Shown here: piece after piece, positions 2,544 through 12,211 of the stretch
Layout: each line of letters opens with the position of its first letter
Numbering within the stretch: the first letter of the stretch is position 1
From: Granulicella mallensis MP5ACTX8
GTDB lineage: Bacteria; Acidobacteriota; Terriglobia; Terriglobales; Acidobacteriaceae
Length of the DNA: 64,000 nucleotides
Direction: 5' to 3'
Assembly (NCBI RefSeq): GCF_000178955.2
Contig: NC_016631.1
Coordinates: 4,402,001 to 4,466,000 of the forward strand
Made by a program: the position numbers and the translations under genes
The notes under the pieces: model-generated
The model's database searches: none
What the model was told of the DNA's origin: nothing
The model's input: only the letters and a program-made list of their open reading frames with translations

Positions 2544-3431
2544 TCAACCGCGTAGACTTGCGGGGGGATGGGTCACTGCGGACAACCGGGCATAAGCGCC
2601 CTGTGGCAGTTCAAGACCCGTAGCAGCAGTATTCTCCTCCAGGTGCTTGACCGAGGATGTTCCGGGAATAGGCAGGATCACTTTGGAGCGCTTGAGTAGC
2701 CAGGCCAGGGCGACCTGCAAAGGAGTCGCGTCAAGATCGTTTGCGACCTGCTTGATGGTGTCGTGTGCCTCCTTCGCTTGACCGAGTGGAGCCCAGGGAA
2801 GAAAAGCGATATTGTGCTGCTCGCAATAATCGACGATGAAGTCAGATTCCCGGTCGGCGAAGCTGTAGCGGTTCTGCACTGAGACAATCGGCACAATCCT
2901 GCGTGCCCTCTCCACGTGTTCACGAGTCACATTCGAGAGCGCGACATGGCGAATCTTACCCTGTTCGCGCAGGCCGGCGAGTGCTTCGATCGACGCCTCG
3001 AAGGACACAGCATTATCGGGAGCGTGCAGTTGATAGACGTCGATACGATCCAGCCGCAGACGTTTTAAACTTCCCTCGAGTGCTTCGGTGAGATGGCTCG
3101 GACTGGCATTGTGCGTCCATTGGCCGGGACCTGGGCGCTCCCATCCACCCTTGGTTGCGATCACCAATCCAACTGGATAAGGGTAGAGTGCTTCTGCGAT
3201 CAATTCTTCGGAGGTGCCGGGGCCGTAGGAGTCGGCCGTATCGATCAGGTTCACGCCGAGGTCAATCGCACGCCGAAGCGTTGCAAGGGATGTAGCTTTG
3301 TCTGTGGGAGGTCCCCACACGCCCGCCCCTGTAATGCGCATCGCGCCGTAGCCCAGGCGGTTAACAGTAAGATCGCCACCGATGGTAAACGTGCCAGCAG
3401 CTGCGGCTGAAAGAATCTGTTCCTTATTCAT
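2544..3431 (-). CDS. Aldo/keto reductase
   Basis: 295 aa, cytoplasmic, no leader. The catalytic tetrad typical of the family is visible: Asp64 and Tyr69 in NLIDTADSYG, Lys94 in IATKGG, His136 in VYQLHAPD. The C-terminal NADPH-binding loop reads ILPIPGTSSVKHLEENTAA. The start has AAAGGAAC upstream. It belongs to the broad AKR group of small YajO/YdbC-like oxidoreductases that reduce aldehydes or ketones with NADPH. It sits between the Tat-exported AKR and the sorbosone-dehydrogenase-like gene in one operon, suggesting shared sugar or aldehyde chemistry. Substrate unknown. Confidence 0.9.
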   Translation of the reverse strand: MNKEQILSAAAAGTFTIGGDLTVNRLGYGAMRITGAGVWGPPTDKATSLATLRRAIDLGVNLIDTADSYGPGTSEELIAEALYPYPVGLVIATKGGWERPGPGQWTHNASPSHLTEALEGSLKRLRLDRIDVYQLHAPDNAVSFEASIEALAGLREQGKIRHVALSNVTREHVERARRIVPIVSVQNRYSFADRESDFIVDYCEQHNIAFLPWAPLGQAKEAHDTIKQVANDLDATPLQVALAWLLKRSKVILPIPGTSSVKHLEENTAATGLELPQGAYARLSAVTHPPASLRG

Positions 3432-3487: not shown

Positions 3488-4639
3488 TCAGGCAGGCACT
3501 GGCGCATTCTGCTCAATCAGATTCTGAGCTTTGAGTTCTGCCCAGAACGGGGTCGGGATCTTAGTTTGCATGGAGGTGTAATCCGCAAGGATCTGCTGCT
3601 CACTGCTGGCGCCTACAACAAGGGCTGCAGCGACGTCCGGCGCAGCCGAGAATTGAAGCGCCGCAGTCCGAAGCTCGACTCCATGATTACTTGCAACCTC
3701 GCGAAGCCTCTTACGTTTTTCAAGAAACGCAGGCGGAATCTGATATGACTCTTTCCCATAGTTGTAACGCGGACTTCCCGAGATAAACCCGGCATTGAGT
3801 GATGACCCGATCACGAAAGACACCCCCTTCGCCTTGGCCGCTGGAAACACTTGATCCAACGCATTTTTATGGTCGATCAGAGAATACTGAGAGGCCAGAA
3901 GGCATACATCCGGATCTGCGACTTCAAGCAGTCGCATGATTGGTTCTGGAGTATTGACGCCGATTCCCCAGCCTTTGATTAATCCCTCTTCCCGCATTCG
4001 AGTAAGTTCAGGAAATGCACCCTTGCGGGCGATTTCGAACTGCTCTTGCCAGGATGTTGGAAGATATTTGTTATCCGAGGAGATGTCGTGGACGAAGGCT
4101 ATGTCCAGGCTGTCAATTCCGAGCCTTTGCAGACTGTCTTCAATGGAACGTCGCACGCCAGACGCAGTGTAATCGTAGACCACATCATTCGGGGAGGGGG
4201 AGAAAGGAAAATACTCTCTATTCTTCGCGGTCTTCGATGCCTTGAGAAGCTTGCCGACCTTCGAGGAGAGGATGAATTCGCTTCGATTCTTGTTGTGAAG
4301 AAAGTTGCCGTATCGACGCTCGGCCAGACCTAGTCCGTACCACGGAGCCATGTCATAGTAGCGAATCCCGGCATTCCATGCGGCTTCAATGGTGGCATAC
4401 GCATCTTTGTCGGTAATGACTTCAAACTCATTTCCGAGAGGAACCCCTCCTATACCGAACCTGAACGGTGGCTTGTAGTGCTCTTTGTTGCCGTTGCTGA
4501 CAGCCTGCTCCATGCTGTTACTCCCATCATTCATATTTGGTGCACTTGCCGCGGAAGCTGCCCTGGGCAGAAGTGCTGTTGCCACTGCCATGGCTGATCC
4601 TTTGACGGTGACACTCAAGAAGTCTCTTCTCGTATTCAT
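3488..4639 (-). CDS. Tat-exported aldo/keto reductase (aldose dehydrogenase-like)
   Basis: 383 aa from the ATG at 4639, which shares one base with the upstream stop (TGATG) and has AGAGG 8 nt upstream; another ATG lies two codons earlier. The N-terminus NTRRDFLSV then a hydrophobic stretch ending PRAASAA is a twin-arginine leader, so the folded, cofactor-loaded enzyme is probably exported. The AKR barrel carries YYDMAPWYG (Asp and Tyr), LSSKVGK (Lys) and IAFVHDI (His). Overall it resembles the pyridoxal 4-dehydrogenase / D-threo-aldose 1-dehydrogenase branch, NAD(P)-dependent in known members. A periplasmic NAD(P) enzyme is unusual and implies pre-loading of cofactor or loss of nucleotide dependence. 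It is coupled to the cupin upstream. Confidence 0.85.
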   Translation of the reverse strand: MNTRRDFLSVTVKGSAMAVATALLPRAASAASAPNMNDGSNSMEQAVSNGNKEHYKPPFRFGIGGVPLGNEFEVITDKDAYATIEAAWNAGIRYYDMAPWYGLGLAERRYGNFLHNKNRSEFILSSKVGKLLKASKTAKNREYFPFSPSPNDVVYDYTASGVRRSIEDSLQRLGIDSLDIAFVHDISSDNKYLPTSWQEQFEIARKGAFPELTRMREEGLIKGWGIGVNTPEPIMRLLEVADPDVCLLASQYSLIDHKNALDQVFPAAKAKGVSFVIGSSLNAGFISGSPRYNYGKESYQIPPAFLEKRKRLREVASNHGVELRTAALQFSAAPDVAAALVVGASSEQQILADYTSMQTKIPTPFWAELKAQNLIEQNAPVPA

Positions 4640-5166
4640 CAGCATTTCCTCTCTATAGGATTTGGATCGGTTGGCAACCAGAAATCGTCAGGCAAATTGA
4701 CAACAATTGGCTCTGGCGTACTTCGCACAACCACCCATCGAAATGCATTGTTTTTCGATGGGTTAAGCTCCTGATGTGGCAACCAACTCGGCACATGCAG
4801 AAAATCGCCCGCCCTAACAGTGACCGAGTGTTCTCCAAAGTTGCCCCAGCGCACATAGGCCTCTCCTTCAAGCACGTAAACGACGGTGTCCTGTTCGCCG
4901 TGGTGGTGGATGCCGGTCTTCCCGGAAGGCTCGACCACAAATAGGCCTGCCCATATCGAGGAGACAATGCCTTGCATGGCCACAATGGCGGACATCCTCA
5001 GCGATCCTGACGTCTGCTGGGTTTCGGTGCTCAGTTCAGCGGGATGCACGACGCTGATCGTTGAATTCGATTCCGGGCCAGATCCCGTCCGAAGAGCAAC
5101 TCCTCCCGGCACAGCAAGCGGGTCAGCTATCGGGCGAGTGAGCGAATCATTAGGTTGGTGCCCCAT
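4639..5166 (-). CDS. Cupin-domain protein, first gene of TetR-controlled operon
   Basis: 175 aa from the ATG at 5166, which has GGAG 7 nt upstream; an ATG at 5199 would add 11 residues but lacks a site. No export signal. The C-terminal half is a cupin: TGIHHHGEQDTVVYVLEGEAYVRWG followed by VTVRAGDFLHVPSWLPHQELNP, both metal-binding motifs intact. Proteins of this shape often sense or transform small carboxylates or aldehydes, but nothing here fixes the substrate. It overlaps the Tat-type AKR by one base, showing tight translational coupling. The palindrome at 5202-5228 lies about 35 bp before the start, in a position to overlap the promoter. Confidence 0.8.
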   Translation of the reverse strand: MGHQPNDSLTRPIADPLAVPGGVALRTGSGPESNSTISVVHPAELSTETQQTSGSLRMSAIVAMQGIVSSIWAGLFVVEPSGKTGIHHHGEQDTVVYVLEGEAYVRWGNFGEHSVTVRAGDFLHVPSWLPHQELNPSKNNAFRWVVVRSTPEPIVVNLPDDFWLPTDPNPIERKC

Positions 5167-5201
5167 GTGATCTCCAGATGGTTCGTAATTGCTCGGCAAG
5201 C

Positions 5202-5228
5202 TACTGTACTGTACCGTACATTACAGTA
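5202..5228. promoter_or_regulatory. Palindromic operator of cupin/AKR operon (probable TetR site)
   Basis: A 27-bp inverted repeat centred on 5215: left arm TACTGTACTGTAC, right arm reading TACTGTAATGTAC on the other strand (12 of 13 match). Eighteen of 20 core bases (GTACTGTACnGTACnTTACA) recur at 6448-6467 in front of the TetR gene. It lies 36 bp upstream of the cupin start. Confidence 0.75.
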
Positions 5229-5417
5229 AGATGCATTAGACGACAAATTAGACGCACAATTAATCCGAGGCGTCTGAAGAAAAGTTCGCGCAAATGCTGC
5301 TCCACGGAGAAACCGGCGAGTTGCAAAATGGCCTCACGCATTGTCTTGCTCGGGATCGTACTGGTATGAACTCTTACGCCTCCGTCGAGACCGCCGCGCA
5401 GATGCATTCAATGCACG

Positions 5418-5448
5418 AAGAGCCCTCGTATGTAGGAGGGCTCTTTTG
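5418..5448. terminator. Hairpin terminator downstream of NIPSNAP gene
   Basis: A 10-bp perfect stem AAGAGCCCTC / GAGGGCTCTT (5418-5427 with 5436-5445) with an 8-nt loop. It lies 18 bp beyond the stop of the minus-strand NIPSNAP gene, between it and the promoter of the next minus-strand operon. The T-run is short on either strand, so efficiency is uncertain. Confidence 0.65.
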
Positions 5449-5465
5449 CGTTTACCGTAATCTCA

Positions 5466-6278
5466 CTAAACTTGCGAACAGGCCAGGGGGCGCAACACCA
5501 GGCTCGTCACATTGGATACCGTTGGTGGGTCTAAGTTAAACCTCGAATCGGCAGAGAGCTTCTTCCAATCGGGATCGGCGGAAAACTTTTCCCAATCTGT
5601 CTCAAGCGAAGTCATATCAGGAAAGCTGAGCATATAGGTAAGATTCGGCAGATTCGGTCCAACCAGTGTATCGGCGTAGAAAACTCCCGTAGCGCCGGCC
5701 TTAGCGAAGATGCCAAACTCGCCGCTATGAAACATCTCCACCTTCCGGACGTGATCCATGTTTGTCGGGGACTGATACTGGCGAAGGTGATAGATGCGTT
5801 TCCCTTTGGTTGCGGCGGAGGCTGGTGGAGTGACCTTGGGATATCCCGGGAACGCCCGCAGAAGAGAACTCTCTATCCGAATATAGGGCGGCGTGGCGGC
5901 GGGAGCATCCCAGAACTGCGCTGCCGCCTTCATAAAGACATCGTCCTTCGCCAACTCGAGATCAGCTGTAACCAAGGTTTCCAACTTCGAACTTGGCATC
6001 AGCAGGTAATAGGACGGGCTATCTGGTCCGAAATAAACAGAGAATGCACCAACTGGCCCAATGCCGAGCCGGTTCAATGCAGGAATTAAAGCATCGGCAA
6101 AAAAATCATTGGTGAGCTTTACTCCCGGTCCATTTGCTAAATGGTATCGGCGCAACTCCATGTACTCCGGCGCAGATTTGTCCGCAGCAGTGGCTGTCTG
6201 AGCCAGTAAATCACCAGCAGCAGCGAGCGAGAGGGCTGAAGCAGCAAGAGAGCTAGAAAGAAAATTGCGACGATCCAT
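5466..6278 (-). CDS. Tat-exported NIPSNAP-family protein
   Basis: 270 aa. The N-terminus MDRRNFLSSSLAASALSLAAAGDLLAQ is a twin-arginine-like leader with an AxA-type cleavage region. The body has two ferredoxin-like NIPSNAP repeats: YMELRRYHLANGPGVKLTNDF near residue 40 and RIYHLRQYQSPTNMDHVRKVEMF near residue 165, the second followed by IFAKAGATGVFYADTLVGPNLPNLTYMLSF. The family has no settled biochemical role; members occur beside degradation operons and may bind small molecules. It is alone on the minus strand, divergent from the TetR gene, with a shared operator at 6446-6467. Confidence 0.8.
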   Translation of the reverse strand: MDRRNFLSSSLAASALSLAAAGDLLAQTATAADKSAPEYMELRRYHLANGPGVKLTNDFFADALIPALNRLGIGPVGAFSVYFGPDSPSYYLLMPSSKLETLVTADLELAKDDVFMKAAAQFWDAPAATPPYIRIESSLLRAFPGYPKVTPPASAATKGKRIYHLRQYQSPTNMDHVRKVEMFHSGEFGIFAKAGATGVFYADTLVGPNLPNLTYMLSFPDMTSLETDWEKFSADPDWKKLSADSRFNLDPPTVSNVTSLVLRPLACSQV

Positions 6279-6445
6279 GAAGTCTCCTTGAGATTAGATA
6301 ACGTTAGGTCCAAACAATTTGCGGTGACCACTTGCAACGTTCTTCGCCTGGCCCTGAGCAAGGATGATCGTCAGAGAGAGAGAGAGAGTCCAGCGACAAT
6401 GGTGGTATTGCGTTCTCCATAGGCTTAGCTATTACTTTTCAGTTT

Positions 6446-6467
6446 CCGTACTGTACAGTACGTTACA
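6446..6467. promoter_or_regulatory. Second TetR-type operator between NIPSNAP and tetR genes
   Basis: Contains the perfect 14-bp palindrome GTACTGTACAGTAC (6448-6461) followed by GTTACA. It aligns without gaps to the 5202-5228 site (18 of 20 core bases). Its place in the 346-bp divergent region between the NIPSNAP gene and the TetR gene fits autoregulation plus control of NIPSNAP. Nothing else notable was seen in this gap apart from a GA dinucleotide run near 6375-6389. Confidence 0.75.
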
Positions 6468-6624
6468 ATATACAAACAAGTTACAACAACCCTATAGGGC
6501 TAACAAGCCAGAGTGGCGTGAAGCAATAGGCCGCGTAAAATGCTGCTGGTACAGGGGATTCAAGCTGGAGATTGCATTCGATATCTTTGGAAATGCATTC
6601 ACGACTTGAGATGAGGAGAGATGA

Positions 6625-7251
6625 ATGCCTAATAAGCGGTCGCGAGGAGAGGTTCGAAACAGCAAGCTCCAAAAAGTCGCAGCAGACCTGTTTCTAAAGC
6701 ACGGCTATGAGGGTGTCACCATCGACAAGATTGTCGAGTTGGCTGGCGGGTCGAAAAGTACGGTTTACACCGAATTCGGTGGGAAGTGTGGACTGTTCAT
6801 CAGCAGTATCGAAAACTTGTGCCGCGAGGCGAATGAACCGCTCACAAAGATTGACTATGCAGGATTGAACCTTGAAGCGAGTCTGAAAAAACTCTCTATT
6901 CAGATTCTGCACCTCATCACCGCGAAACGGTCCGTGGAGCTTCATCGTCTGGCTATCGGCGAGGCGGTGAACTGTCCTGAAGTAGGCGAGGCATGGTACA
7001 CACATGGTCCAGCCAGAACGGCTTCGTTTATACGCGCTCTGTTGGAAAGTCGTCGCGAAGAGCTACGAAAAACAACGATTCCAATTGACCGGATGGCGGT
7101 GCTCCTTCACGACTCATTGACGGGAGACACCCTCTACCGTCTGTTGGCAGGAGTCGGTAGTCCTAAAAGCGATGCCGAGCTCGAGCGGTTGGCCTGCACT
7201 GCAGTCGACGCCATTCTCGGGAACCTTTGCAGCGATCCATCAAGAAAATAG
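6625..7251 (+). CDS. TetR/AcrR-family transcriptional regulator (AefR-like C-terminus)
   Basis: 208 aa; start ATG has GAGGAGAG just upstream. The N-terminal TetR helix-turn-helix spans about residues 12-58 (AADLFLKHGYEGVTIDKIVELAGGSKSTVYTEFGGKCGLF). The C-terminal part, with VELHRLAIGEAVNCPEVGEAWYTHGPAR near residues 105-132, resembles the AefR-like TetR_C_7 domain. Such proteins repress adjacent operons until a small ligand binds. The two matched palindromes at 5202 and 6446 are its likely operators. Ligand unknown; the adjacent aldehyde/sugar oxidoreductases hint at a reactive carbonyl or sugar-derived compound. Confidence 0.9.
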   Translation: MPNKRSRGEVRNSKLQKVAADLFLKHGYEGVTIDKIVELAGGSKSTVYTEFGGKCGLFISSIENLCREANEPLTKIDYAGLNLEASLKKLSIQILHLITAKRSVELHRLAIGEAVNCPEVGEAWYTHGPARTASFIRALLESRREELRKTTIPIDRMAVLLHDSLTGDTLYRLLAGVGSPKSDAELERLACTAVDAILGNLCSDPSRK

Positions 7252-7323: not shown

Positions 7324-7734
7324 TCAAGAGATGAAGTCCGTGAAGTGAGTCGTCGTCCTGGGAGGCAGGAACGTTTCTGAGGAGCGTAGCTGCTGATTCG
7401 TGAGTAGCAGATCAGCAATGATCAGTTGCAGAGCTTCGGATCTTTGCCGCCAGAATGCGGTATCCGCTTCAGGCTCTGGAATGGATGCGAACTCGTGGGA
7501 GATGACTTCCCTGCCGTGGGCTGCCAATTCAGTCGTGGCGCCCGTCGATACGGAGGCCGCTATGGAGGGGGCAGAGGTGCGCTTCAGAAGGTGATCAACT
7601 GAAACATAACCCGCACTCATCGCTACGATGAGGAGGGCGCCGATGATCGCCTGTGGGGCCAGCGAGGGCACTCCGGTCCATCTCGAAGCTGCACCGATAA
7701 CGAATGCGACAATGAACGCGATCAGGATTTTCAT
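7324..7734 (-). CDS. XapX-domain small membrane protein with C-terminal extension
   Basis: 136 aa. Residues 1-50 (MKILIAFIVAFVIGAAS, VPSLAPQAIIGALLIVAMSAGY) match the two-helix XapX/DUF1427 domain, with the conserved VPSLAPQ turn between the helices. Residues 55-136 are a hydrophilic tail not present in the usual 50-90 aa XapX proteins, with a possible amphipathic helix AFWRQRSEALQLIIADLLLTNQQLR. It is the last gene in an operon with the MetA-like outer-membrane protein and the FMN reductase. XapX proteins have no proven function; small-molecule transport assistance is often suggested. Confidence 0.7.
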   Translation of the reverse strand: MKILIAFIVAFVIGAASRWTGVPSLAPQAIIGALLIVAMSAGYVSVDHLLKRTSAPSIAASVSTGATTELAAHGREVISHEFASIPEPEADTAFWRQRSEALQLIIADLLLTNQQLRSSETFLPPRTTTHFTDFIS

Positions 7735-7763
7735 CTTCTTCTCCTTGAAACACTACGTTTCGT

Positions 7764-8672
7764 TCAGAAAGTCTTTTCTATCCTCAGTACGAGCTTGTTT
7801 CCTTCGGGACGATTCTTTACGCCAAGCTCGTGATAACCATTTGCATAGAAGAACCATTTACCCGAGTTCCAGACCATGCCTGGACCGATCGCTCCTACTT
7901 GTTCCGGAGAGTTCCGAAGCGGGACGCCATTGACACGGCCATCCGTAATCTGCCGGAGGTAATAGGCGTTTGGGCCGATCCAAAGGTGTTTGCCAAAGTT
8001 GTACGCAGTGGTGGCGTTGAAGTGGACCACCTTTCCTGCCTGTGTCGATTGAGCACCTGTTGCGATTGGCGGGCTATCGTTCGTCGAGTTCCAGAGATAG
8101 TGGACTCGCCAACTGGTCTCGATACGCTTGAGGGGGAATGCGGTAACCGCATAATACGGATGAACAGTGAATGCATTCGCGCCGATATTTACAGCAGAAG
8201 ATCGGGTGTAAGCACCCACGGGTAGATCGAAATCGAAGACGACTCGTTGGTCGATAGGGACCTTGCCGATCTTTCGCTCACTCCATTGAAGGATGAATGG
8301 AGACACCGTAAGCGCTCCCCACCCACCGGATTGTCCCGCACTGCCGGCGTTGACGTGCGCGGCAGCCGCCACTACTTCCGTGCCGTACCAACCGCCCAGA
8401 ATCCTCTTATGAGCTAGCCACGCGATGTGAGTCAGTTCGCTGATGCTATTAGTAGCGCCGGCTCCTGCAATCGGCCTCCCGTAGCCGTCTACAACCGTTC
8501 CTTCATGGGCACCATCTCCAATCTCTTCAATGACCACGCCGGGGCCTGCGATACCGTCGAGAAAACTGGTATCGCCCAGGTTCACCGCCGGCTCCGCAAC
8601 GTGCGTCTGCGCGACGAGCGAAACCGAAGAGATGAAGGCCAGGAAAAGGACGTATTGGAGCGGCTTGAGCAT
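7764..8672 (-). CDS. Outer-membrane beta-barrel protein (SphA / phenol-degradation MetA-like)
   Basis: 302 aa with a signal peptide (MLKPLQYVLFLAFISSVSLVAQ). The pattern of alternating hydrophobic/aromatic strands, ending in a typical outer-membrane C-terminal strand LVLRIEKTF with terminal Phe, indicates a beta-barrel. Segments such as VVFDFDLPVGAY, FPLKRIETSWRVHYLWNSTN and GKHLWIGPNAYYLRQITDGRVNG resemble the Phenol_MetA_deg/SphA transporter family, proposed to take up aromatic or hydrophobic compounds. It is 9 bp after the FMN reductase in the same operon, 29 bp before the XapX gene. A role in uptake of a substrate reduced by the partner enzyme is inferred. Confidence 0.75.
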   Translation of the reverse strand: MLKPLQYVLFLAFISSVSLVAQTHVAEPAVNLGDTSFLDGIAGPGVVIEEIGDGAHEGTVVDGYGRPIAGAGATNSISELTHIAWLAHKRILGGWYGTEVVAAAAHVNAGSAGQSGGWGALTVSPFILQWSERKIGKVPIDQRVVFDFDLPVGAYTRSSAVNIGANAFTVHPYYAVTAFPLKRIETSWRVHYLWNSTNDSPPIATGAQSTQAGKVVHFNATTAYNFGKHLWIGPNAYYLRQITDGRVNGVPLRNSPEQVGAIGPGMVWNSGKWFFYANGYHELGVKNRPEGNKLVLRIEKTF

Positions 8673-8681
8673 GGTCCTTTC

Positions 8682-9257
8682 CTATGCACAAACCAGGCGG
8701 CGACCCAGAATCTCTTCACGAAGTCTGTCGAGCGAGCGCAGCATAAAAGTCAGCCCCTGCTCGTCCTGATACACATCCTCAGCGAGCTTCGCGTGAACGC
8801 CACCGACGACGACCTCTGGCCCCATCACGAGGTGCGCATGCATGGAGATCAGCGTCTCCCGCAGCTGGTACTGAGCCCGGACGCCGCCCGTAAACGCCTT
8901 GGACGAACTGATGATCGAGACGGGCTTGTCCTTGAAACATGACTCGAAGACCGGCCGGGAGGCCCAGTCGAGTGCATTCTTCACAACACCTGGCATGCCG
9001 TGGTTATATTCAGGTGTTGCGATGAGGACCCCGTCGCTTGCCGCAATGATCTTCCTGAACGAGGCAACCGAAGGTACCTCAGGACTCCGATCCAGATCCT
9101 CGTTATAAAGTGGAATGTCTTCCAAAGTCACCACCTGAATGTCGATGGCAGGCGCGGCTTTTACAGCCAGTATCTTCAGCAGCGACGTGCTGAAAGACGC
9201 TCTGCGGAGGCTCCCTGAAATGCCAACGACTCGAACTGTTTCTCCCGTGCGGTCCAT
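8682..9257 (-). CDS. NAD(P)H-dependent FMN reductase (flavodoxin-like)
   Basis: 191 aa from the ATG at 9257, which has GAGGAG 8 nt upstream; an upstream in-frame ATG at 9296 adds 13 residues with no site. The flavodoxin-like fold shows the phosphate loop VVGISGSLRRASFS near residues 9-22 and the family signature TPEYNHGMPGVVKNALDWAS near residues 80-99. Members reduce FMN, quinones, azo dyes or metal ions with NADPH. It heads a minus-strand operon divergent from a LysR gene, so LysR control is expected. Real substrate unknown. Confidence 0.88.
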   Translation of the reverse strand: MDRTGETVRVVGISGSLRRASFSTSLLKILAVKAAPAIDIQVVTLEDIPLYNEDLDRSPEVPSVASFRKIIAASDGVLIATPEYNHGMPGVVKNALDWASRPVFESCFKDKPVSIISSSKAFTGGVRAQYQLRETLISMHAHLVMGPEVVVGGVHAKLAEDVYQDEQGLTFMLRSLDRLREEILGRRLVCA

Positions 9258-9384
9258 GTTTTTCTCCTCGTCTGTGGCCGCGTCTAGCGTCCACATTCAC
9301 GAGGCTAGGCCCCTCTTTTTCATGTGTCCAACGAAAGATTCGCATAATATATATCTTCAATGGTGATGAATAGAAGGAGGTCCT

Positions 9385-10439: not shown

Positions 10440-11315
10440 ATGAAGCTGATCTCACGGCGTCGATTTGTGCAGGTTGGAGCTGCAGTGATGTGCACGCGTT
10501 TGACTTGGGCACAACCAGCGCAGTTACTGCCGGCAGGGTTCCCGATTGGGTTGCAGCTTTACAGTGTAGGCGACGATCTACAGAAGGACGTTCCCGGAAC
10601 ACTGCGGCAAATCAGGGCGCTCGGGTATGAGCGGGTAGAAACAGCAGGATTTGCTGGGCTGACGGCCAAGGCGTTTCGTACCCAGCTCGATCAGGCACAG
10701 CTGGTGTGTCCGAGCACTCACCTGCCGGTGGGCAGCTCCGAACTCGGTCCACTCTTCGAGGATGCACACGTCGTCGGTGCACGATATGTAGTGAGCTCGG
10801 CGCTGTTTTCTAAGAGCGGAGATCAGACATTCGATGACTACCGCACAATGGCGGACCGGCTCAATGATCTGGGACGCAAGGCAAAGGCCGCGGGGCTTCA
10901 GTATGCGTACCACAACCACAACTTTGAGTTCCGCAAGTTAGACGGCGACAGGATTGGGTACGACGTGTTGCTGAAGCATACGGACCCGGAGCTGGTAGCT
11001 TTTGAGCTGGATTGCGGCTGGATCGTGGCCGCCGGGTTCAGCCCAATCGAGTATTTCAGCCAATATTCTGGACGCTATCGGATGCTGCACATAAAGGATT
11101 TCGTTGCGACCAAGGGGCCGAGCACATCGCTCGCAAAGGAGGAGCGGCCTCAGGGTGCGGAACTGGGACGTGGACATATCCACTACAAGCCGATCCTTCT
11201 TGCGGCCGCCAACGCAGGCATCCACGACTACTATGTGGAACAGGAGCCGCCGTTCCTCGATATGCCCGCTCTTGCGGCTATAAAAGTTGATTATCAGTAT
11301 CTGCGTACCCTATAG
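10440..11315 (+). CDS. Tat-exported sugar-phosphate-isomerase/epimerase-like TIM barrel
   Basis: 291 aa; AGGAG precedes the ATG by 4 nt. The leader KLISRRRFVQVGAAVMCTRLTWAQ has a twin-arginine core. The rest is an AP-endonuclease-2/xylose-isomerase-like TIM barrel: FPIGLQLYSVGDDLQKDVPGTL at the start, metal-ligand-rich YHNHNFEF near residue 160, ELDCGW near residue 193 and a C-terminal YYVEQEP. Such barrels bind a divalent metal and isomerise or epimerise sugars, or open 3-keto-sugars. Export makes a phosphorylated substrate unlikely; an unphosphorylated sugar or keto-sugar in the periplasm is more probable. It pairs with the next gene (23-bp gap). Confidence 0.8.
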   Translation: MKLISRRRFVQVGAAVMCTRLTWAQPAQLLPAGFPIGLQLYSVGDDLQKDVPGTLRQIRALGYERVETAGFAGLTAKAFRTQLDQAQLVCPSTHLPVGSSELGPLFEDAHVVGARYVVSSALFSKSGDQTFDDYRTMADRLNDLGRKAKAAGLQYAYHNHNFEFRKLDGDRIGYDVLLKHTDPELVAFELDCGWIVAAGFSPIEYFSQYSGRYRMLHIKDFVATKGPSTSLAKEERPQGAELGRGHIHYKPILLAAANAGIHDYYVEQEPPFLDMPALAAIKVDYQYLRTL

Positions 11316-11338
11316 AATCGCAGGCTGCGGAGGGATGA

Positions 11339-12211
11339 ATGAATCGTAGAGAGTTTGGAAAGATGAGTGCGGGAGCAGCTCTGGCGTCAGCGTGGCCTAT
11401 GACTGCGCAAGGCCCTGGCGCGGCAAACAAAGTGCGATTCTCCTTCATGCTGTGGGCACTTGAGAAGCAGGCGCCCTTCGACCAATGCCTGGAATGGGTG
11501 GCCGAAGCAGGTTATCAAGGAGTGGAACTTGTGGGTGAGTTCCAGAGTTGGTCGTCCACCGAGAGAGAAACCATCATGGCGAGGATGCGCCGCCTGGGAA
11601 TGGTCTTTGACGCGATGAGCGGCGTGAAGGCAGGATTAGCGGAGCCAGAGCAGACAGAGGCGTTTCGGACGCAGTTCACCGAACAGATGAGGGCAGCGAA
11701 GGAACTGGAGTGTCCGAAGATCATTCTGCTCTCGGGCAAACGGGTAGAGGGTCTGCGCGCCGGTATGCAGCGGCAGACATCCATCGATAATCTTAAGTGG
11801 GCAGCCGAGAGAGCGGCAAAAGAGCAGATCGACATTGTGATTGAACCGATCGATCTGCTGGAAAATCCGACCATCTATCTGGCATCTGTGACGGATGGCT
11901 TCGAGATGGTGCGGGCAATCGATAGTCCGAATGTGAAGGTTTTATACGACTTCTATCATGAGCAGCGGAGCTTCGGGAACCTGATCGAAAAACTTGAAAA
12001 GAATATCGAATGGGTAGGCCTGGTGCATGTGGCAGATGTGCCGGGACGGCATGAGCCGGGCACGGGCGAGATCGACTACGAGTCGATCTATCGCAAACTG
12101 GCGGAGCTCAACTACAGCCATTGGATTGCGATGGAGTACTACCCGACCGAAGAGCCGGTAGCCTCCCTGAAGAAATCACGGATAGAGGCGCAGCGGGCTC
12201 TGAAGCAGTAG
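11339..12211 (+). CDS. Tat-exported hydroxypyruvate-isomerase-like TIM barrel
   Basis: 290 aa. The leader MNRREFGKMSAGAALASAWPMTAQ has the RR motif and a short hydrophobic core. The barrel follows the hydroxypyruvate isomerase pattern: VRFSFMLWALEKQAPFDQCLEWVAEAGYQGVELVG near residues 32-66, IEPIDLLENP near residue 166, KVLYDFYHEQ near 200, and the family's signature VADVPGRHEPGTGEIDY near 231-247. The Glu, Asp and His residues that hold the divalent metal are present. Known Hyi is cytoplasmic; the Tat leader argues for a different, periplasmic substrate. Same unit as the preceding TIM barrel; convergent with the GH2 gene, with no clear terminator in the 133-bp gap. Confidence 0.8.
   Translation: MNRREFGKMSAGAALASAWPMTAQGPGAANKVRFSFMLWALEKQAPFDQCLEWVAEAGYQGVELVGEFQSWSSTERETIMARMRRLGMVFDAMSGVKAGLAEPEQTEAFRTQFTEQMRAAKELECPKIILLSGKRVEGLRAGMQRQTSIDNLKWAAERAAKEQIDIVIEPIDLLENPTIYLASVTDGFEMVRAIDSPNVKVLYDFYHEQRSFGNLIEKLEKNIEWVGLVHVADVPGRHEPGTGEIDYESIYRKLAELNYSHWIAMEYYPTEEPVASLKKSRIEAQRALKQ

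Follow-up and report, generated by a model that had tools for sequence, protein, structure and literature searches.

The window, a stretch of 64,000 nucleotides from the genome of the soil acidobacterium Granulicella mallensis MP5ACTX8, carries a gene for a TetR regulator (6625-7251, plus strand) that combines a TetR_N domain with an AefR-like TetR_C_7 domain and has NalC as its nearest solved structure. Divergent from it lies a gene for a NIPSNAP-family protein (5466-6278, minus strand). Further along the minus strand is an operon that opens with a cupin gene (4639-5166) and continues with a Tat-type aldo/keto reductase (AKR; 3488-4645), a cytosolic AKR of the PRK10376 subfamily (2544-3431), a glucose/sorbosone dehydrogenase-like protein (GSDH; 1021-2547) and a small cupin at the end of the same-strand run (536-1006). 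The open frame of the first cupin extends to a TTG at 5199, and the ATG at 5166 is the preferred start. Judged by eye, the Tat-type AKR and the NIPSNAP protein have leaders of the twin-arginine type, and the N-terminal sequence of the GSDH protein marks it as exported. The nearest solved relatives of the cytosolic AKR are AKR13B2 and pyridoxine 4-dehydrogenase, and the GSDH domain match is weak at 33 bits. Searches of solved structures returned no match for the Tat-type reductase (E up to 1e-20), the GSDH protein (1e-4) or the NIPSNAP protein (0.01).

A scan with the TetR protein returned 17 loci, 12 of them close (74-98% identical, from records of Granulicella, Edaphobacter or Acidobacteriaceae); the closest TetR record is that of G. 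mallensis X5P3 at 98%. The cytosolic AKR, found in 11/12 close loci, is the steady member of the module. It is accompanied by the GSDH gene in 9/12, the first cupin in 8/12 (two of them partial) and the small cupin in 5/12 loci, although some of the absences among the 12 are contig ends, as at L040. The sequence-only reading of this DNA had included a Tat-exported reductase and a Tat-exported NIPSNAP protein in the regulon. Both do recur as members, in 6/12 and 3/12 loci respectively, but they are optional and do not belong to the core. The X5P3 locus is nearly identical to that of the window and lacks the Tat-type AKR (L031:6008-6180), while in a metagenome contig (L039:6118-7281) this gene is broken into two open frames, by assembly error or decay.

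Two predicted operators, neither assigned to a strand, lie at this locus. Site 1 (5202-5228) precedes the cupin/AKR operon and is 36 bp from the ATG at 5166, and site 2 (6444-6470) occupies the interval from which NIPSNAP and tetR diverge. Both had been pointed out before, the first as a near-perfect palindrome, and both are present: site 1, TACTGTACTGTACCGTACATTACAGTA, has 12 of 13 base pairs matched in a dyad centred at 5215, and site 2, put in the register of site 1, reads TTCCGTACTGTACAGTACGTTACAATA. The two are identical at 22 of 27 bases overall and at 18 of 20 in the core (5206-5225 against 6448-6467), the same core identity as was first counted. In this register site 2 is a poor palindrome (8/13 pairs). 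Its best dyad is a perfect 16-mer at 6447-6462, centred at 6454.5 and thus 2.5 bp away from the equivalent centre of site 1. What the two sites have in common is a GTAC rung at each 5-bp step, a better description than one palindrome in duplicate. Site 1 can be written TACT.GTACT.GTACC.GTACA.TTACA.GTA and site 2 TTCC.GTACT.GTACA.GTACG.TTACA.ATA. In both, GTAC or a close variant recurs at intervals of exactly 5 bp, which creates overlapping dyads every 2.5 bp. We call this arrangement a GTAC ladder.

Ladders are rare. With up to three mismatches allowed, the two-site pattern matched only sites 1 and 2 in the window, where 100 shuffles gave an expectation of 0; the pattern was built from these two sites, so this search tests rarity only. 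Across the whole genome (6.24 Mb in a single contig) sites 1 and 2 are likewise the only sequences within one mismatch of the motif. The next-best genome matches, at two mismatches, lie at G000:C1:3168073 (L007) and 4321765 (L008). The former is inside a long open frame, and neither was counted as a third target. Scans for promoters of the sigma-70 type and for terminators near both sites gave no match. A short GA-repeat tract is found at 6371-6387, between site 2 and the NIPSNAP start.

The position of the ladder is conserved together with tetR. A lack of conserved sites alongside conserved genes had been named as one of the findings that would count against the idea, and a ladder is kept upstream of tetR in 12/12 close loci. 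An alignment of 14 tetR upstream regions (the window, the 12 close loci and L049) shows the ladder as its best conserved 24-base block, at 85% compared with a mean of 44%. The number of ladders follows gene order, and intervening or inverted genes go with a separate ladder for each promoter region. Where tetR directly faces the operon (L032, L034, L035, L038, L039, L040 and L042) there is one ladder; where NIPSNAP stands between them (the window, L031, L033 and L037) there are two, and L033 has four further genes besides NIPSNAP in this interval. At L041 the GSDH gene is inverted and comes with a separate ladder. At L036 a second ladder lies ~410 bp before a three-gene operon (L036:6417-10934) with 2Fe-2S, FAD and molybdopterin domains, a domain make-up that predicts an aldehyde oxidoreductase of the XDH family. 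The same 2Fe-2S/FAD/molybdopterin genes occur at L037:8990-12957 with no ladder in front. On the other side of tetR, at 7324-9296 of the window, XapX, phenol-MetA-pathway-type and FMN reductase genes lie beside a LysR gene and have no ladder; they accompany the locus in L031 and L033.

We then compared the occurrence of TetR and ladder in 62 genomes of a single genus, that of G302 (probably Edaphobacter, from the matching loci), a sample that includes in part the same species as the close loci. The TetR is encoded in 14/62 genomes and a ladder with at most one mismatch is present in 15/62. The ladder occurs in 14/14 genomes with TetR versus 1/48 without it (Fisher p ~5e-13, a value inflated because the counted genomes are related and relatedness was not corrected for). 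In the lone exception, G524, two ladders lie close to a different TetR, 26% identical, and to a sigma-like gene labelled by eye. A reversed control pattern matched 6/62 genomes. The cytosolic AKR provides a further comparison: it is found in 19/62 genomes, and the six of these that lack the TetR also lack the ladder. At the seven AKR loci outside the tetR context (those in the six genomes and a second copy in G522) the best match has at least five mismatches. The ladder is thus kept with the TetR and lost with it. Where a TetR genome has several ladders they share a cluster, with one exception (G236:C1:3294999), and the regulon is therefore local. Co-occurrence, conserved position and absence where the TetR is absent together support the small local regulon that the sequence-only reading had proposed, in which the cupin/AKR operon is joined to the region of tetR and NIPSNAP.

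The regulator belongs to the TetR family by its N-terminal domain (PF00440, 39 bits, cut-off 24) and to the AefR-like type by its C-terminal domain (TetR_C_7, PF14246, 47.9 bits, cut-off 22). Among solved structures, NalC of Pseudomonas aeruginosa comes closest, at 75 bits in an alignment that covers only residues 2-142 of 208; the AefR structure 3cdl reaches no more than 31.5 bits. The region of the recognition helix is similar in the two proteins, GGSRGTLYSSFGGK in NalC compared with GGSKSTVYTEFGGK in the window TetR. An AlphaFold model of the window TetR has a mean pLDDT of 62 and a pTM of 0.52.

The comparison with NalC extends to the operator. In the available part of the NalC study (PMC3290565), binding was mapped by gel shift to an inverted repeat at the PA3720-armR operon. 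The oligonucleotide given there contains GAAC.T.GTAT.C.GTAC.A.GTAC, 2/16 mismatches from the ladder, and 0/20,000 dinucleotide shuffles were as good. The same excerpts report that little if any binding was left when the first half of the repeat was altered, and that a 21-bp fragment limited to the repeat was unbound; both results fit a need for more than the central pair of rungs. In the NalC system as in the window, the TetR gene and a target diverge from an interval that holds the operator, and the window TetR has beside its own gene an operator of the kind present in the published NalC-1 oligonucleotide, which carries a 5-bp GTAC ladder. The systems differ in what they control, as the NalC target is the antirepressor of an efflux pump whereas the predicted window targets are AKRs, GSDH and cupins. 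NalC controls PA3720-armR, and the flanking genes in the window are NIPSNAP, cupin, AKR and GSDH. Pentachlorophenol releases NalC according to the same partial text (PMC3290565), and in strain PA14 cinnamaldehyde raised NalC-controlled armR 43-fold (PMC9774640 Table 1, the part at hand). The passages at hand of PMC11705830 call the NalC-ArmR route essential for the cinnamaldehyde response, alongside AmgRS, and cinnamaldehyde may act on armR partly via AmgRS. In the literature extracts searched, no description of the NalC site as a 5-bp ladder was found, the extracts of PMC10609311 and PMC6018408 yielded no NalC operator, and none of the open-access records listed was a paper on this gene set or on TetR operators in these genera. 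Motif strings in the literature extracts were mostly primers, and the lugdunin TetR paper, in its retrieved part, has such a string only in the flanks of another regulator's site; these were set aside.

From their position and conservation, sites 1 and 2 are very probably operators of the window TetR. We propose that the TetR is a repressor of the NalC/AefR type that would bind GTAC ladders with 5-bp rungs and repress the cupin-AKR-AKR-GSDH-cupin operon, NIPSNAP and its own gene, because one ladder precedes the operon and the other lies between NIPSNAP and tetR. Negative, autoregulated control of this kind is likely. With half a helical turn between successive rungs, at least two dimers would probably be staggered on both faces of the DNA. 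Cooperative operators of the QacR type bind two dimers on overlapping dyads. The window operator resembles these in being long (~27 bp) with overlapping dyads, and differs from them in the strict 5-bp spacing of the ladder. Binding of a small hydrophobic compound to the TetR would free the ladders, and the cytosolic and exported reductases, the GSDH protein and the cupins might then convert that compound. An aldehyde or a phenol is the most likely kind of compound: the responses of the NalC system, the reductases and the molybdenum operon of L036 favour such a signal, and by this analogy we put forward the ligand class tentatively, at somewhat short of even confidence. Taken as a whole, the proposal of a NalC/AefR-type repressor, GTAC ladders, a local oxidoreductase regulon and an aldehyde or phenol signal has a good probability of being right. 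For an acidobacterial TetR, the operator, the target genes and a possible class of ligand can thereby be predicted. In kind, this is a local repressor regulon of the ordinary sort.

The same repressor and operators could instead serve a sugar-derived signal, with the locus acting as a periplasmic sugar-oxidation pathway. The cupins and the GSDH-type protein of the operon fit this, as do two nearby sugar-isomerase-like genes (10440-12211, labelled by eye), but the isomerase-like genes have no ladder and the GSDH match is the weak one described above. In addition, the steadiest enzyme is the PRK10376-type AKR, whose solved relatives are not sugar dehydrogenases, and the regulator is nearest to the phenol-responsive NalC. 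Neither a sugar nor a quinone signal has direct evidence in its favour, and we consider a sugar signal unlikely.

Far less probable is that the ladders are operators of another, unlinked regulator and that their proximity to tetR is incidental. Evidence for this comes from the wider family, where other TetRs adjoin ladders and more than one protein can therefore own such a site. In a sample of 150 family genomes, at no more than one mismatch, the TetR is present in 3, all with a ladder, and 5/147 others match. Two of the latter (G019 and G089) have the ladder beside a different TetR, ~25% identical, and a sigma-factor-like gene labelled by eye; in G089 the ladder-adjacent TetR was scanned and is a TetR_C_7 protein. 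The remaining matches (G058, G060 and G108) have no TetR-labelled gene in the 3 kb read and look like background, so they were rejected. Against an unlinked regulator stands the co-occurrence in the genus sample, where even the lone exception has its ladder beside another TetR, and the genome of the window encodes three further TetR_C_7 proteins, none of which has a ladder with up to three mismatches nearby. It is hardly credible that the sites arose by chance or are structural repeats with no regulatory role. Isolated family-sample matches do mean little, with the reversed control matching as many genomes as the pattern itself (8/150 each, at most one mismatch), but position and presence track the TetR in 12/12 loci and 14/14 genomes, and exact four-rung ladders are found in 3/396 phylum genomes while the reversed control has 0/396.

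With the TetR as the very probable owner of the ladders in the window, we asked how far the ladder reaches among its homologues. Five distant chromosomal loci (L043-L047, 28-37% identity over the matched part) have no ladder within three mismatches; their best matches have 5, 5, 5, 4 and 6 mismatches, and that of L046 lies 100 bp before the TetR match. Among 12 plasmid homologues, drawn from 200 plasmid records with a match and 26-37% identical, 6 have a ladder with up to four mismatches. They come from Paraburkholderia, two Cupriavidus, Thioclava, Microvirga and Nonomuraea. The number of upstream shuffles that did as well, out of 2,000, was 1 for L067, 5 for L068, 0 for L069, 0 for L070, 32 for L073 and 0 for L076, and the ladder of L073 is weak. 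No ladder within four mismatches was found at the other six (L071, L072, L074, L075, L077 and L078). A paralogue in the window's genome with a stronger TetR_C_7 match (L132:1117-2000) has a ACCGAACGGTTCGGT-type repeat on both sides. The 6/12 distant homologues without a ladder and this paralogue with another motif indicate that the ladder code is common to part of the branch and not to all of it. The findings suggest that NalC-like operators may be recognisable by a simple rung rule, by which targets could be assigned to unstudied TetR proteins. A broader version is rather doubtful: the 5-bp GTAC ladder might serve a large part of the NalC/AefR branch as a common operator code, retained across Acidobacteriota, Proteobacteria and Actinomycetota between proteins 25-37% identical, with staggered dimers bound in varying number and with rung number setting the strength of repression, and in acidobacteria it might govern a periplasmic-plus-cytosolic module for aldehyde conversion.

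Several further loci are of note. The L132 paralogue adjoins a frame that resembles an efflux adaptor, a label given by eye. On the Paraburkholderia plasmid (L067:2453-3066), two ladder-like sites stand ahead of a NIPSNAP-deacetylase-TetR gene run, which is a separate link between NIPSNAP and regulators of this type. Finally, three other family genomes have one or two GTAC ladders that are flanked by a sigma-factor-like gene and a TetR 24-27% identical to that of the window (L055:753-1524, L056:676-1524 and L094:682-2251). This is a second recurring ladder locus, distinct from that of the window.
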